Below, piece after piece: positions 19,720 to 34,287 of a stretch of 53,092 nucleotides of DNA. This stretch comes from Chloroflexota bacterium (GTDB taxonomy: Bacteria > Chloroflexota > Anaerolineae > Caldilineales > Caldilineaceae). The notes under the pieces are model-generated. The model made no database searches and was not told where the DNA came from. It was given only the letters and a program-made list of their open reading frames with translations. Both the position numbers and the translations under genes were made by a program. Location: contig JAPLGZ010000243.1 of assembly GCA_026389895.1 (NCBI GenBank), forward strand, positions 1 to 53,092, in the 5' to 3' direction. Each line of letters opens with the position of its first letter. The stretch's first letter is position 1.

Positions 19720-21252
<1,533 letters not shown>

Positions 21253-23267: not shown

Positions 23268-25139
23268 GTGATAAAATCCTATCGCCAACGATCATTCGTG
23301 CTCCTGCTGCTGTTGCTCCTCGGCCTCAGCTCGAACGCAGCTGTTGTCTACGCCAGCCCATCTTTGCAAGGCGCTCAGGATCAAACCTTGCAGCAGTGTG
23401 ACGTGGTCTCTGAAGATGCATTGCAAGATGAGCTAAACCGCGTCACGCAGCAGGTCTTTGCCCAGATGCTGGCGACAGTTGACATCAATGCGATTGTCGC
23501 GGCCAAGTGGAACGAATTAGGGGTGGACACGGTTATCGACACCGAGATTGATCGGGCTGTTGAACATGTCAAAGGTGAAAAGGATCTTTTAAGTAAATTT
23601 TTGTCAAGCTGGTCGGCGGATAAAGCGCAAGAATTGACGCGCGAGGTCGCCAGCGAGGCTTTTCAATCGGAAGCCTTTCGCAGCAAAATTGATGCGCTTT
23701 CCGTGGCCGTAGCCGATGATTTGTCCGGGAAAATTGCCAGCATGTCGGCGGAATCCGTTTCGGCGGCTTTCTTCTGTTTGCAAACCTTTATCAAAGGCAA
23801 CTATGCCAACGTCTTGGTCAGTGCTTTTGAGGAAGAAGTTCAAGGGGCTACGGCTAAAGCACAATTTGCCGCGGCGGATGGCAATGATACCAATATCTTA
23901 ACGATTATCGGCCAACATAAGGCCGCCTTAGGCGGCCTTGGTGTGATCGTCGCCGCCCAAGTCACCCGGCGTGTGTTGGTGGATATTGGCGAAACGATTG
24001 CTGAACGCGTGGCCGGCCAGATTGTCACCCGTGTGCTCGGGCGCATTGGTTCCGAGGTGATTCCCATTGTGGGCTGGCTGGTCGGCGCGGGTTTGATCGC
24101 CTATGATATCTACAATAGCATGGATGGCGCGCTGCCACAGATTCGCGACTCACTAAAATCAACCGAGGTTAAAGCGGGCATCCGGGATGAAATTGTGGCT
24201 TCGGTCAAGCCTGAGTTAGAGCGTCAACTGCCACAAATTGCACGCAACATTGCCAATGAGCTTTTTAGTGAGTGGCGCAATGTAAAAAAGAATATTCGCC
24301 AAGTGCTAGATCTGGCGACCGTCAACCCGGCGTTCAAAGCCATTTTGGACCGCATGGATAACCAGGCTGATCTGGCAAAATTGGTCAATGTGGTTGGCGT
24401 GGTGCTGACTGCTTCGGGGCAAGCAGGGCTGGACAAAGCGATCACGGATGGTTCACTCGAACAATTGTTGGCGCAACCAGAGAGCGCGTATAAAATTGTG
24501 GAAGCGACTAAGTCTATCCAAAGCGCGTTAGATTGGTCGGCCCAAGCGGGCGGTTCGCTTGACAAGGTAGTGGCGTTTGAAGTTTATAACCATAAAGCCC
24601 CGACCGATTTGAGCAAACCTGTTTTGCAACAATTATTGGCGCTTGATAATCAGCCGACCATTGCCAAGCTTGCTTTGTTAACGCCGCCTGTGATCGAGAC
24701 CCTGCTCACCATTTCTGCCAGCAATTTGAATACGATGGTGAATCGGTTATCCCCAGAGGATCTCCAGACGGTCGCCGCCATTTTGCCTTCGCTGAACGCA
24801 CAACAGAAAAATCAATTTGTGGCGCGCGTGATGAGTGATCCGGCGATTGTTGCTCATTTGAGCAGCCCAACGGCTCAAAAACAACTAGCCGCTAGCCCCG
24901 ACATGGATGCTTCGCTGGGCTTTCTGGCGACCCCGAAAGATATCGGTTCGATTGTGGCTGATGTGACCAATGTATTTTCGGGTGGCGTCGCCTGGCAGCT
25001 TTTTGCCTATAAGTATGGCACCGGCCAGACAACATTTATCGGTATTGCCTTGCTGTTGATTGCCCTTGTGGTGCTCCGTCTGCTCTTTGCACTACTCGCT
25101 TGGTTTGTCAGCCCACTTACAAATTTACGCAAGAGGTAA
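23268..25139 (+). CDS. Membrane-anchored exported protein, paralog A (unknown function)
   Basis: No family recognised. 623 residues from GTG 23268, which follows GGTGG; a longer frame starting at 23196 would overlap leuA. Layout: a signal-like helix (FVLLLLLLLGLSSNAAVVYA), a largely helical external part, and a C-terminal membrane helix (FIGIALLLIALVVLRLLFALL) with the basic end NLRKR. A glycine-rich hydrophobic centre runs from GGLGVIVAAQVTRRVLVDIG to IPIVGWLVGAGLIAYDIY. Two cysteines (QQCDVV and FFCLQT, about 150 residues apart) match those of paralog B downstream, so a disulfide is likely. Helical repeats fill the second half. It is separated from B only by a YbjQ gene and starts 52 bases after leuA. 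Confidence 0.8.
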   Translation: MIKSYRQRSFVLLLLLLLGLSSNAAVVYASPSLQGAQDQTLQQCDVVSEDALQDELNRVTQQVFAQMLATVDINAIVAAKWNELGVDTVIDTEIDRAVEHVKGEKDLLSKFLSSWSADKAQELTREVASEAFQSEAFRSKIDALSVAVADDLSGKIASMSAESVSAAFFCLQTFIKGNYANVLVSAFEEEVQGATAKAQFAAADGNDTNILTIIGQHKAALGGLGVIVAAQVTRRVLVDIGETIAERVAGQIVTRVLGRIGSEVIPIVGWLVGAGLIAYDIYNSMDGALPQIRDSLKSTEVKAGIRDEIVASVKPELERQLPQIARNIANELFSEWRNVKKNIRQVLDLATVNPAFKAILDRMDNQADLAKLVNVVGVVLTASGQAGLDKAITDGSLEQLLAQPESAYKIVEATKSIQSALDWSAQAGGSLDKVVAFEVYNHKAPTDLSKPVLQQLLALDNQPTIAKLALLTPPVIETLLTISASNLNTMVNRLSPEDLQTVAAILPSLNAQQKNQFVARVMSDPAIVAHLSSPTAQKQLAASPDMDASLGFLATPKDIGSIVADVTNVFSGGVAWQLFAYKYGTGQTTFIGIALLLIALVVLRLLFALLAWFVSPLTNLRKR

Positions 25140-25145
25140 TCTATC

Positions 25146-25466
25146 GTGCTTATTAGCCTGGACCAAATGCCATCTCAAAACCCGCCGCGCGATGTTGAAA
25201 TTGGCGAAATGTTGACCGTTGTCGTAGTGGCAGCTGCCAACGTGATCAAAGATATTCGTGAGAATATTCGCAATTTGGTTGGCGGCCGCATGACCCACTA
25301 CGAGAAAATGATCGAAGATGCGGTCAACCAAGCCTTGAGCGACTTGGATGAGAAAGCCAAGGCCCGCGGCTACGATGGCGTGATCGGCGTCAAGATCACC
25401 AATCCGACAGTCGTCGAAGGCGCTATTGAAGTAATCGTCTATGGGAATGGATTTAAATACCGTTAA
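25146..25466 (+). CDS. YbjQ/UPF0145-family protein
   Basis: A 106-residue soluble protein of the YbjQ family (often called heavy-metal-binding domain), which forms pentamers in known structures but has no agreed function. Seen: [19 protein letters not shown], the helix [21 protein letters not shown], and the strand pair [22 protein letters not shown]. The N-terminal strand that usually carries the GxxVG motif is shortened or diverged ([14 protein letters not shown]). GTG start behind AAGAGG, 6 bases after paralog A, so probably co-translated with it. Confidence 0.85.
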
Positions 25467-25539
25467 TTTGCGCTGTCCCTGCTGATCACACCAAATCCAC
25501 GGCGCGTTTATCCTAGCTCACTCTGCATTGCTTTAGAAA

Positions 25540-27402
25540 TTGTTCAGACGCGGCTGCGTCAGGTTGCAAAATACACTATTGAAGTACTTACTTTTTAAAC
25601 TTACCAGTTTACTTGTTATACTCTCGCTCTGTTTGTCGGCACTGCCTGTCTATGCCCAACCATTGCAGCAAGATAATCCCGCTAGCGATTATACCTATGG
25701 GGATTGCAGCAAGCTTAACCAAGAAGCCCTGCGTACGGAAATTGAAAAAATTGCGCATCAGGTGTTGACAGATGAAAGTAATGGGCTAGACATTGACACT
25801 GTTGTGGCGCGCCATTGGGCCAGCTTGAATGTCGATGCGACGATCAATGGGGAAGTTGAGCGCGCTGTCAATCAGTTGAGTAATGATGAGGGCTATTTCA
25901 GCCGCTTATGGTCGGGCTGGTCCGCCGAGAAGGCCGAGGAGTTTGCCACCAAAATCGCCAATGACGCGTTTACCTCCCCGACCTTCAAAAATAAGATCAC
26001 AGAGCTGTCAAATGCGATAGCCTTAGAGATATCCAACGACATCGAAGCGAATTTTGCGCGAGCAGCCTCGGCGGCCTTTTTGTGTATGAAGGCCTATGTG
26101 GGCGAACGTTATTCGGCAACGCTCTTTTCGGCTTTTGAAGATAAGGTAAGCGTCGAAATTAAAGGTGTCAACGTTGCCGACGCCAATCCCGTAAAGGTTA
26201 ACCCTACCGATGTGCATGGCAAAGCATTAGGTGGCTTAGGGTTGATTATTGTCACCGAGATTTCGCGGCGGATTGCCCAGAAGCTGGCGGAGAAGATTGC
26301 ACAGCGGATTGCAGGTGGCATTGTCGAACGTATTTTGGGCGAAGCTGGCGCGTCTTTGATTCCAATCGCGGGCTGGATTGTGGGCCTTGGGCTGATCGCC
26401 TGGGATTTGTGGCAAGGGGGCAAGGGCGCGCTGCCTCAAATTCAGGAGGCCTTGGAAGGTGAAGAAGTGAAAGCCAAAATCCGGAACGAGATCACCGCTT
26501 CGGTAAAAGATGGTTTGCCGCAAGAAGTGTCGATTGTCTCGCTCGAGATCGCTGTTGACATTATGGATGATTGGAATAATTTTTGCACGGTTAATCAATA
26601 TGTCTGTATGGTGGCCGGGGAAAATTCTACCTTTAAACAGATTTTGGACAGTACACCCCTCGATCATATCAGCGCTTTATCCACCCTGGTCAACACCTTT
26701 ATTGAAATCGCTGGCCGCAGCACCCTCGATAGCGCAATCCAGAACGGTCAGTTTGAGCAATTGCTGGCTTTGCCGGCCCCGGCGTTGGATATTTTGCACA
26801 CCACAAAATCGGTTGAAACAACGTTGCTCTGGGCCAAGCTAGCGGACGATAAACTGGATCGGCTGGTTAAATATGGTGTCTACCTGCGCAAAACTCCCGC
26901 CGACTTTGATCAAAAGTTGTTGCTAGCAGTGTTAAACCTAGATGACAATGGCGCCATTCAAAAATTGTTAGAGTTGGATCATGACCAACTGGCTGCTATC
27001 GTTGACTTTGCCGGCGATCAATTGGCGCCGATTACGCTGCAAACTTCGACTGCCGACATCAAACAACTGGCCACCTATCTGGTGCAGCAGCCAGCTAGTC
27101 AGCGACCGACTGCTCAAGCGGCGACTGCTCTGGCAAATGGCACGTTGACCGTGCAGAAATTGATCCAGCCTGCGGTGGAAGCTGCCGCCGCTCCAACGCC
27201 TACCGCGCCGCCAAAGTTAGAATCTGTGGGTGCCTACCCTAAAATTTATGCATTTCTCCAGCCTTTGGTTGGCAATAGTGTCATTGTCGCGGCGTTCGCG
27301 TTGGTATTGCTCATCTTGATCGCCGCAACTGTGGGCTTTCTCTTTAGGCGTCGCAAGGCTCGTCACGTCGATGCCATGGACCACTATACACTCCGCCGCT
27401 AA
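25540..27402 (+). CDS. Membrane-anchored exported protein, paralog B (unknown function)
   Basis: Homologous to paralog A over its length. 620 residues if started at TTG 25540; TTG at 25564 or 25579 is equally possible because no ATG or clear ribosome site is present. It has a signal helix (LLVILSLCLSALPVYA), the same two cysteines (YGDCSK and FLCMKA), the same glycine-rich core (GGLGLIIVTEISRR to IPIAGWIVGLGLIAWDLW), a P/T linker (APTPTAPPK) and a C-terminal helix (VIVAAFALVLLILIAATVGF) with FRRRKAR tail. It differs from A by an inserted cysteine pair (NNFCTVNQYVCMVAG). Function not known. Confidence 0.8.
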   Translation: MFRRGCVRLQNTLLKYLLFKLTSLLVILSLCLSALPVYAQPLQQDNPASDYTYGDCSKLNQEALRTEIEKIAHQVLTDESNGLDIDTVVARHWASLNVDATINGEVERAVNQLSNDEGYFSRLWSGWSAEKAEEFATKIANDAFTSPTFKNKITELSNAIALEISNDIEANFARAASAAFLCMKAYVGERYSATLFSAFEDKVSVEIKGVNVADANPVKVNPTDVHGKALGGLGLIIVTEISRRIAQKLAEKIAQRIAGGIVERILGEAGASLIPIAGWIVGLGLIAWDLWQGGKGALPQIQEALEGEEVKAKIRNEITASVKDGLPQEVSIVSLEIAVDIMDDWNNFCTVNQYVCMVAGENSTFKQILDSTPLDHISALSTLVNTFIEIAGRSTLDSAIQNGQFEQLLALPAPALDILHTTKSVETTLLWAKLADDKLDRLVKYGVYLRKTPADFDQKLLLAVLNLDDNGAIQKLLELDHDQLAAIVDFAGDQLAPITLQTSTADIKQLATYLVQQPASQRPTAQAATALANGTLTVQKLIQPAVEAAAAPTPTAPPKLESVGAYPKIYAFLQPLVGNSVIVAAFALVLLILIAATVGFLFRRRKARHVDAMDHYTLRR

Positions 27403-27430
27403 TGTTTGCACGAACGCTTATCAAGCGATG

Positions 27431-27470
27431 AACCCCTCGGCGCGATTGGTCGAGGGGTTTTTATTTTAAA
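27431..27470 (+). terminator. Intrinsic terminator after paralog B
   Basis: AACCCCTCG and CGAGGGGTT form a 9-bp stem with an 11-base loop, followed by TTTTATTTT. It closes the transcript of the paralog module. Confidence 0.85.
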
Positions 27471-27524: not shown

Positions 27525-28658
27525 ATGAAAAGTGAGCTAGACGAGCAAAAATATGCGCCTAGCAGGAAGGGCTGGCTGAATACAATCCGCCACGATTGGC
27601 TCGTTTTACTGCTGTTTGTCGTTGGTCTGGTATCAAGCTTGGTGTACTTACCGGCGCATGGCGCAGAGATCCATGCCGGCACCATCCCCATGACACCGAA
27701 TGTCTATTTGCCGCTGATAAGCCGTGCGCCGACGCCGACGCCAGGCTTATCAAATTGGCAACAGCTTGGCGGTGCTGACTTAAGGCTCTCTAGCTTGGCC
27801 TTTGACCTGTCGATAACGGACAATCCGCGTCTATACGGTGGCGATCTGCGCGAGGCAAACGAAGGTGGCGGCCTTTATCGGGCCAACGTTGCGTCCACCT
27901 GTCTCTATGGCCAGATCTTGGCGCGCGTCAATAACGATGTACGCGTGCTGGATTTAACCTTTAACGATGATCAAGGCTTGATCGGCACTTTCGGCGATAA
28001 AGTGCTCTATTACGAACGCCGCACGGACAGCTGGCAATTTACGCCAAGCGCCATGAATGCCAACGTCTATGCCGTTACCTTTGCTGGGTTGGCTGCTTAT
28101 GCCGGGACTGACAATGGTGTCTTTACGAGCACGGATAACGGTATTACCTGGCAAGCTGTCGGTGGGCCCCAGAACATCAATACAATCCAAGCGCATGACG
28201 ACAGTTTGTGGATTGGGGCAGATGCGACGGGCGTCTATCAGATGCTGCTGGCCGATCATCAATTGTTGCCCCAAACTATCGATGGCTTGACCGGCAAAGC
28301 GCTTGAAGTGTGGAGCTTTGTGTTTAACGGTGACACAGTCTTCGTCGCGACATCAGATGGCGTTTATCAAGGGACAACGGCCAAAACTGGCAATGTTTGG
28401 CGATCCTTCGGTCGCCAAGGCGCACTCGTCAAAACCCTGGCTTTGGTCGATGATGTTCTCTATGCGGGTGAAACAACCAATGGCGTTTGGCAGAAGCCAC
28501 TGGCAACCGGCGCTGACTGGACGCCGCTAACAGTTGGTGTCGGTTGGCAACCAAATTTTACGGTGCTGGATCTGGTCTATCAATCTACTTTATGTGGCGG
28601 TGGTCTCTTTGCCGCCACCAGTGATGGCATCTGGGTTTATGGAACGCATGGGCAGTGA
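27525..28658 (+). CDS. Membrane-anchored surface propeller protein with YLPLISR motif
   Basis: 377 residues, ATG behind AGGAAG. A membrane helix (residues about 26-46, LVLLLFVVGLVSSLVYLPA) is followed by VYLPLISR at 64-71 and a short Pro/Thr linker (APTPTPG). The rest is repeats of about 45 residues with the BNR-like signature VFTSTDNGITWQAVGG and similar turns (VYQGTTAKTGNVWRSFGRQG), so a beta-propeller on the outer face is expected. No catalytic motif is visible. It may be a cell-surface sensor or glycan binder, but this is only inferred. It lies between two metabolic blocks behind its own terminator-bounded unit. Confidence 0.8.
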   Translation: MKSELDEQKYAPSRKGWLNTIRHDWLVLLLFVVGLVSSLVYLPAHGAEIHAGTIPMTPNVYLPLISRAPTPTPGLSNWQQLGGADLRLSSLAFDLSITDNPRLYGGDLREANEGGGLYRANVASTCLYGQILARVNNDVRVLDLTFNDDQGLIGTFGDKVLYYERRTDSWQFTPSAMNANVYAVTFAGLAAYAGTDNGVFTSTDNGITWQAVGGPQNINTIQAHDDSLWIGADATGVYQMLLADHQLLPQTIDGLTGKALEVWSFVFNGDTVFVATSDGVYQGTTAKTGNVWRSFGRQGALVKTLALVDDVLYAGETTNGVWQKPLATGADWTPLTVGVGWQPNFTVLDLVYQSTLCGGGLFAATSDGIWVYGTHGQ

Positions 28659-33734: not shown

Positions 33735-34037
33735 ATGAATGTGATTCATACGATTGATCTGATTGCTACAAACCCACAGATCCGTGACGGGCGACCTTTT
33801 ATTGTGGGAACGACAGTCACCGTCGCGGATGTGGCCGTAGCCAAAATTTATCAAATGTTAGATGCTGACGGCATTGCGGATTGGTTTAATTTATCTCTGT
33901 CGCAGGTTTATTCAGCACTGGCTTATTATTACGAACATAAGCCAGAAATTGACCAGAGTATCGAGGCTAGACGCAAGCTTGCTCAGGAAATGAAGGAGAA
34001 GCGCGTTGGCAGTCGTCATCAGTCTCTATTTGGATGA
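33735..34037 (+). CDS. DUF433 antitoxin-like protein
   Basis: 100 residues. The DUF433 core is visible: NPQIRDGRPFIVGTTVTVAD, then the helix-turn segment WFNLSLSQVYSALAYYYEH. Such proteins are usually the first gene (antitoxin) of a two-gene toxin-antitoxin pair. ATG follows AGGGAGG, a strong ribosome site. The 3' end overlaps the next gene by 32 bases. Confidence 0.85.
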   Translation: MNVIHTIDLIATNPQIRDGRPFIVGTTVTVADVAVAKIYQMLDADGIADWFNLSLSQVYSALAYYYEHKPEIDQSIEARRKLAQEMKEKRVGSRHQSLFG

Positions 34038-34287
34038 AAACTTATCGCCAAAGATTGCTTACCAGCTAAGACGGCGAGGGATTGACGCCGTCACAGTGCG
34101 TGATCTTGGTTTGTTAGGTGATACGGATGAAAATCATCTCGAGCGTGCAACGGCGATGAATTATGTGTTAGTGACAGGCGATACCGACTATTTGATCATG
34201 GCTGCGGCCGGTGCCAAACATGCCGGAATTGTCTTTGGCATGCAAGAGAATCATGGCATCGGTGATTGGGTCAGAGCGTTGGAATGA
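34006..34287 (+). CDS. DUF5615 PIN-like toxin
   Basis: 93 residues. The PIN-fold pattern of the DUF5615/Mut7-C-like group is clear: LYLDENLSPKIAYQLRRRG with the acidic pair D-E-N, AVTVRDLGLLGDTDENHL and VLVTGDTDYLIMAA. These acidic positions fit a metal-dependent RNase. TTG start, 8 bases behind a perfect AAGGAG inside the DUF433 gene, so the two are translated together. The target RNA is unknown. Confidence 0.85.
   Translation: MAVVISLYLDENLSPKIAYQLRRRGIDAVTVRDLGLLGDTDENHLERATAMNYVLVTGDTDYLIMAAAGAKHAGIVFGMQENHGIGDWVRALE

Follow-up and report, generated by a model that had tools for sequence, protein, structure and literature searches.

In the DNA stretch analysed here (positions 1 to 53,092 of contig JAPLGZ010000243.1, assembly GCA_026389895.1, from a Chloroflexota bacterium of the Caldilineaceae; hereafter the window), a gene for a helical protein with the marks of export and membrane anchoring, gene A, is followed directly by a gene for a divergent YbjQ protein, and the two constitute a conserved, undescribed gene pair of Caldilineaceae and a few distant bacteria. 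We propose, with a probability of roughly 0.4, that A acts outside the cytoplasm as a stalk-like membrane scaffold or tether devoid of a GTPase, and that YbjQ pentamers would organise it from inside. In the window the pair is accompanied by a second A-like gene, gene B, and the module as a whole reads as follows:

23268-25139 (+): gene A, 623 amino acids (aa), from GTG at 23268 to TAA at 25139, helical, putatively exported and C-terminally membrane-anchored; open reading frame and translation
25146-25466 (+): module YbjQ (UPF0145/PF01906), divergent subfamily, 106 aa, GTG start; PF01906 match of 67.8 bits
25564-27402 (+): gene B, apparent paralog of A, 612 aa, with TTG at 25564 as start (25540 also possible); 36% identity to A, B clade in the tree
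27430-27470 (+): intrinsic-terminator-like stem-loop closing the module, with a 12-pair stem and a T-rich tail

A conserved gene pair

The initial annotation had described one module in which two homologous exported proteins flank a YbjQ protein between leuA and an intrinsic terminator. All three are real genes; the GTG start of YbjQ (25146) lies 6 bases past the stop codon of A, leuA (2-isopropylmalate synthase) is immediately upstream and the stem-loop follows, as had been reported. A and B align with 36% identity over 505 residues (E 2e-99), which is far beyond chance, and on the strength of this alignment they are to be taken as paralogs. The proposal of a triplet stood in part: the module is conserved elsewhere, but its unit is A with YbjQ, and B is optional.

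Amongst 46 Caldilineales genomes, the A family was detected in 36 and YbjQ in 35, always as a single copy and in all 35 above the PF01906 cut-off. Both occur in 34 genomes and neither in nine, with three exceptions (Fisher p 5e-7, not corrected for the relatedness of the genomes, most of which are metagenome-assembled genomes, MAGs). In two of the exceptions, G412 and G427, the A gene lies at the end of a contig; the third, the MAG G426, has a YbjQ without a detected A. The YbjQ gene of G426 (L099, 5579-5899, +) is of the module subfamily and overlaps the end of a ferredoxin-reductase/PyrK-like gene. YbjQ directly adjoins an A or B gene in 33 of the 35 Caldilineales genomes that bear it; several genes lie between A and YbjQ-B in G432, and two genes separate A from YbjQ in G431. 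The order ilvB-ilvN-ilvC-leuA-A-YbjQ-(B)-gltB is conserved in the gene maps of about 36 genomes, and many of the junctions between A or B and YbjQ measure -4, -1 or +6 base pairs, a spacing compatible with translational coupling. A long open frame in G443 (748 aa) that suggested an A-YbjQ fusion was rejected, since the two genes are read in different frames.

A scan of 84,980 species genomes with one peptide pattern, which more distant relatives may escape, found the A family only in Caldilineaceae-type MAGs, in the Truepera-labelled AVDCRST_MAG86 and in the unclassified USDV_metabat.161. In the latter two, A is directly followed by a YbjQ of the module subfamily, and the flanks are quite different from those in Caldilineaceae. 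Searches of both outside phyla added two further genomes, G941 and G905, in the phylum of the Truepera-labelled genome. Adjacent A-YbjQ pairs outside Caldilineales are found in Deinococcota (G750 and G941, one of the cases being Truepera radiovictrix) and in a second outside phylum (G751); in G905, A and a module-subfamily YbjQ are on different contigs. A gene-order artefact as the cause of the pairing is rejected by the pairs outside Caldilineaceae, and the linkage of A and YbjQ is strong. The survey of gene neighbourhoods, which had been proposed as a check on the module, found A and YbjQ recurring together in other genomes, so the module stands. In G751 the pair is followed on the same strand by a gene for a Toll/interleukin-1 receptor (TIR)-domain protein (L200, 10143-11174, +; TIR_2 1e-19, also ThsB_TIR).

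In the maximum-likelihood tree B forms a single clade (support 100/100). Expansion of the C-terminal repeats gave rise to long paralogs on at least two occasions. B occurs in only one section of the family, and duplicates in other lineages arose separately; the unit is therefore A with YbjQ and not the triplet. Extra stalk proteins have been added to this core repeatedly, B being among the later duplications. A 2,226-aa A paralog of G420 (L082, 9115-15795, -), with several tandem units of ~198 residues, represents an independent expansion.

Proteins of the YbjQ family are widespread in bacteria and archaea and several of their structures are available; we know of no function established for them. 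The module YbjQ, the sole YbjQ encoded in the window's genome, is a true family member (67.8 bits against a PF01906 cut-off of 23), and its profile matches the pentameric chain 2gtc (E 8e-14) and also 1vr4 and 1y2i. It keeps the GG and YE signature of the family, which includes E. coli YbjQ, and differs from general YbjQ in carrying AAN-x(3)-D-x-[RK]EN ... HYE ... GY.G ... YGNG, in its lower score on the general model, in its N-terminus and in its linkage to A. The PF01906 match begins at profile position 19, positions 1-18 being the N-terminal strand, and the length of the N-terminus varies within the module subfamily. An alignment of 16 sequences contains no conserved cysteine, and the clearest subfamily-specific invariant residue of ligand type is H51.

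A profile of the module YbjQ, run on 400 genomes of the window's phylum, scored 172 bits in this genome and at most 57 elsewhere. G750, G751 and G941 encode a second, ordinary YbjQ elsewhere, with 110-131 bits as against 54-64 bits for the module copy. This gap, together with the ordinary YbjQ encoded elsewhere, indicates that the module copies form a paralogous subfamily of their own, specialised and linked to A. YbjQ structures are described as pentamers and the YbjQ fold as common to DUF1471 and RcsF, an envelope protein of suspected regulatory role (PMC4092069); a search of open papers that name YbjQ gave no function in the titles and passages covered.

Architecture and predicted fold of A

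The features of A and B which bear on location and fold are:

23268-23354 (+): probable signal peptide of A, residues 1-29 (ending VYA, before SP); hydropathy and AxA-type end
23367-24302 (+): N-terminal long-helix bundle of A, residues 34-345, dynamin-stalk-like in the predicted model; structural alignment and weak LeoBC/LeoB matches in relatives
23397-23399 (+): Cys44 of A, partner of Cys170; pair conserved in the family
23775-23777 (+): Cys170 of A; pair conserved in the family alignment
23919-24155 (+): Gly-rich amphipathic/hydrophobic core of A, residues 218-296, tip of the helical bundle in the model, where confidence is low; alignment invariants and hydropathy peaks
24060-24107 (+): core motif of A, IPIVGWLVGAGLIAYD, read from the letters
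24294-25016 (+): C-terminal helical-repeat (alpha-solenoid) region of A, residues 343-583; model and repeat matches
25020-25118 (+): C-terminal transmembrane helix of A, then a short basic tail; hydropathy 3.01, model helix 585-622
26359-26406 (+): core motif of B, IPIAGWIVGLGLIAWD, likewise read from the letters
26584-26607 (+): B-specific CX6C pair Cys341/Cys348, in 10 of 10 B proteins and without counterpart at the aligned position in A

The common design attributed to the two paralogs, namely a signal segment, matching cysteines (C44/C170 in A, C48/C174 in B), a core with the consensus IPI[VA]GW[LI]VG[AL]GLIA[YW]D and a C-terminal helix, was recovered by alignment and hydropathy. Within the family, a hydrophobic N-terminal segment is present in 50 of the 50 members examined, a strong C-terminal hydrophobic helix in 47 and the Cys pair in 49, its spacing being near constant (123-130 residues, 126 in most). 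As the N-terminal segment, the C-terminal helix and the Cys pairs are conserved, the family is probably exported into oxidising surroundings. With A predicted to be extracytoplasmic and YbjQ cytosolic, any contact between them would be via the membrane helix or the short tail of A.

Few parts of A are as well conserved as the Gly-rich core, in which P266, G269, W270, G273 and D280 are invariant in an alignment of 40 sequences; these residues and the hydropathy peaks agree with the earlier suggestion of a hydrophobic core that may be membrane-active. A stretch of ~198 aa matching the solenoid region of A is repeated in the long paralogs (G420, G404, G419 and others). In one large clade (L073, L077, L079, L089 and others) a conserved strand-like motif, V[NH]VTVN[IV]P[ED]xR, terminates the cytosolic tail of A. 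This tail strand was considered as a general docking site for YbjQ and dropped, the A and B of the window and the Deinococcota proteins being without it.

The paralogs had been thought to lack a known family, and scans of A and B gave zero matches in Pfam and NCBIfam and no family in PHROGs. Of four proteins scanned, the window's A alone matched phrog_7182 (tail transglycosylase, 1.7e-4), and this match was put down to noise from helical composition. A sequence search of A against PDB gave only protein A/affibody fragments (residues 505-534), which vanished with a profile search, and a convincing sequence match to A or B was not found amongst solved structures. Foldseek against viral models gave zero matches, as did a search of plasmids with the A protein. 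Class-level profile matches in G731, G649 and G644 (E ~0.005 in 396 genomes) are at chance level and were rejected as relatives of A, two being EcsC/DUF4112-like with just the IPxxG core in common and one of low complexity. Pfam scans of A, B and relatives gave zero matches to EcsC (PF12787), and the remote L215 and L216 proteins match it weakly, below the cut-off.

The AlphaFold2 (AF2) model of A, built with 40 homologs, is all helix, with a predicted local distance difference test score (pLDDT) of 85.5; that of the N-terminal domain alone, with 42 homologs, has a pLDDT of 79.5 and a predicted template-modelling score (pTM) of 0.76, and neither contains a beta strand. The structural aligner VIA-align was run on the candidates of Foldseek, and dynamin-superfamily stalks rank first for both models, which come from different alignments. 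For the N-terminal domain dynamin-family stalks fill 18 of the top 19 rows, with SynDLP at Z 10.8 (233 aa, 6.8 Å), MxB at Z 10.6 (200 aa, 5.2 Å) and the MxA stalk 3ljb_B at Z 10.2 (191/211 aa, 4.8 Å), and with further rows for dynamin, Drp1, OPA1, BDLP, Mgm1 and the C. jejuni dynamin-like protein (DLP); the stalks span Z 8-10.8 and are followed by ClyA-type proteins and F-BAR domains at Z 5-6.5. Our confidence in a dynamin-stalk-like fold is only moderate, because Z 10-11 is attainable by unrelated long-helix models and is below the level at which the aligner is trusted for helical bundles, and a designed bundle (4uos) reaches Z 8.9 against the same domain. The conserved core (253-299, hydropathy up to 2.1) sits between long helices 3 and 4 of the model, which would place the tip where dynamins carry their membrane-binding insert, a correspondence of position and hydrophobicity only.

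The LeoBC profile matches 10 of 42 N-terminal domains (best 2.9e-4) and 6 of 23 full-length members (best 4.2e-5), and the LeoB profile matches one member (7.5e-4), most family members being without any match to either. Where positions are visible, the LeoBC alignments run through the C-terminal half of the profile, taken as the region after the GTPase, and in places through the whole stalk region. Pfam matches to a dynamin GTPase were zero in A, B and 40 family members, and as the GTPase is absent, membership of the dynamin superfamily is not claimed.

With dynamin stalks and paddles (MxA/MxB, SynDLP, BDLP, C. jejuni DLP1/2, LeoABC), A shares a long helical bundle (in A predicted), a Gly-rich hydrophobic membrane-active element (in A putative) ahead of the last long helix, and the frequent occurrence of paralog gene pairs. 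Unlike them, it has no GTPase domain and combines a putative Sec-type signal peptide and a C-terminal transmembrane anchor with an alpha-solenoid, a disulfide-type Cys pair and a YbjQ partner; we describe a resemblance, and homology is not claimed. Most DLP genes of bacteria occur in pairs within operons, and the two C. jejuni proteins tether liposomes when no nucleotide is present (PMC6104087); LeoA is periplasmic with a glycine-rich paddle (PMC4159319). The core of A has in common with EcsC, DUF4112 (PF13430) and the PADLOC families PDC-S29 and PDC-S30 a basic amphipathic helix and, after it, a hydrophobic helix with IPxxG, but this similarity is weak and confined to ~60 residues.

Surroundings of the locus

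The neighbouring genes encode the large and small subunits of acetolactate synthase, a ketol-acid reductoisomerase relative, LeuA, glutamate synthase, LeuC and LeuD. The reductoisomerase relative, at the ilvC position (19780-21252, +), has 490 aa and scores just below the TIGR00465 cut-off; many relatives have a 333-aa type there, only ~33% identical to it, and the enzyme type at this position was possibly replaced in situ. Just past the module terminator (27525-28658, +) lies a gene for an exported protein with BNR/Asp-box-type repeats and a weak NCBIfam match to the F510_1955 glycosylhydrolase (3e-9, under the cut-off), a homolog of which was not seen at the corresponding place in the gene maps of relatives. 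Between gltB and leuC (33735-34287, +) a DUF433 gene is overlapped by a DUF5615/PIN-like gene in the manner of a toxin-antitoxin pair, and both genes occupy the corresponding site in G431 (L078).

Possible roles of the pair

We suggest that A and B may be exported by a Sec-type signal and held by the C-terminal membrane helix. The conserved Gly-rich tip (IPxxGW...G...D) would insert in or grip a membrane, like the paddle or equivalent insert of dynamins, and the alpha-solenoid between stalk and anchor could act as a spacer whose length is freely changed in evolution. Because a GTPase domain is absent and nucleotides would be lacking outside the cell, A should work passively, oligomerising as a membrane scaffold or tether, rather than as a motor. 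The cytosolic YbjQ paralog, from a pentamer-forming family, would be the dedicated partner of A, and may bind the short cytosolic tails or the inner face and thereby cluster or regulate A, or A and B, in the membrane. A bolder version, in which a YbjQ pentamer arranges the exported GTPase-free stalks as a lattice that bridges or shapes membrane at the outer surface of the cell membrane, the stalks being derived from dynamins that lost the motor and were relocated outside, appears to us rather doubtful.

Several observations weigh against the proposed scaffold or tether, besides the Z scores of helical bundles given above. Foldseek found zero significant matches for the A models (best E 0.19-0.37), and in both models confidence is lowest at the tip. 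The LeoBC matches are weak, come from relatives and were maybe helped by Ala/Gly-rich composition, and the core of A alone also resembles EcsC, DUF4112 and PDC-S29/S30. The tail motif VNVTVN(I/V)P, common in A proteins, does not occur in the A and B of the window or in the Deinococcota proteins, and the MAG G426 carries the YbjQ with zero detected A.

It is unlikely, in our judgement, that the pair forms instead an envelope sensor or signal hub without membrane remodelling, in which a surface stalk senses the state of the wall, the membrane or a neighbouring cell and the YbjQ pentamer detects where the tail lies or how it clusters. Such a hub would suit the predicted placement of A outside and YbjQ inside, joined by one membrane helix, and the repeat number of A, which varies freely as in surface spacers; the fold that YbjQ has in common with DUF1471 and RcsF (PMC4092069) points the same way. 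It leaves the high conservation of the hydrophobic tip (P266, G269, W270, G273, D280) unexplained, however, and a kinase, anti-sigma or other effector gene was not seen travelling with the pair in the gene maps.

The signal peptide, the long-helix bundle and the hydrophobic hairpin of A also recall the secreted ClyA-family alpha-pore-forming proteins, which align with its N-terminal domain at Z 5-6.4 and a root-mean-square deviation of 10-12 Å. A may then be a pore former of the ClyA/Hbl type that sends its hairpin into a target membrane, with YbjQ as a cytosolic accessory or protection factor; we hold this to be improbable, as dynamin stalks score clearly higher (Z 8-10.8) and are structurally nearer, and as the C-terminal anchor (47 of 50), the single chromosomal locus and the absence from plasmids ill suit a toxin. 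There is a similarly slim chance of a metal-related envelope function, in which YbjQ binds metal with A as its envelope partner: the title of PF01906 is 'putative heavy-metal-binding', but the module YbjQ has no conserved cysteine in the alignment of 16, H51 being the clearest invariant of ligand type, and neither A nor the neighbours resemble metal transport. That the two genes are mere neighbours, reflecting only the conserved leuA-gltB order in a family which keeps ilv-leu-gltB together, is hardly credible, given that three genomes from two other phyla have the two genes side by side between unrelated flanks, that the module YbjQ subfamily is present even unlinked (G905) and that absences are shared.

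A dedicated, conserved partner of YbjQ in at least three phyla, one instance being the cultured Truepera radiovictrix with its complete genome sequence, brings the function of YbjQ within reach of experiment. If the lattice is real, it would provide the first function for a YbjQ-family protein. If the stalk reading is true, A would represent a dynamin-like membrane device that works outside the cytoplasm and free of nucleotide, and would bear on the action of dynamin stalks apart from the GTPase, as well as on the periplasmic bacterial DLPs.

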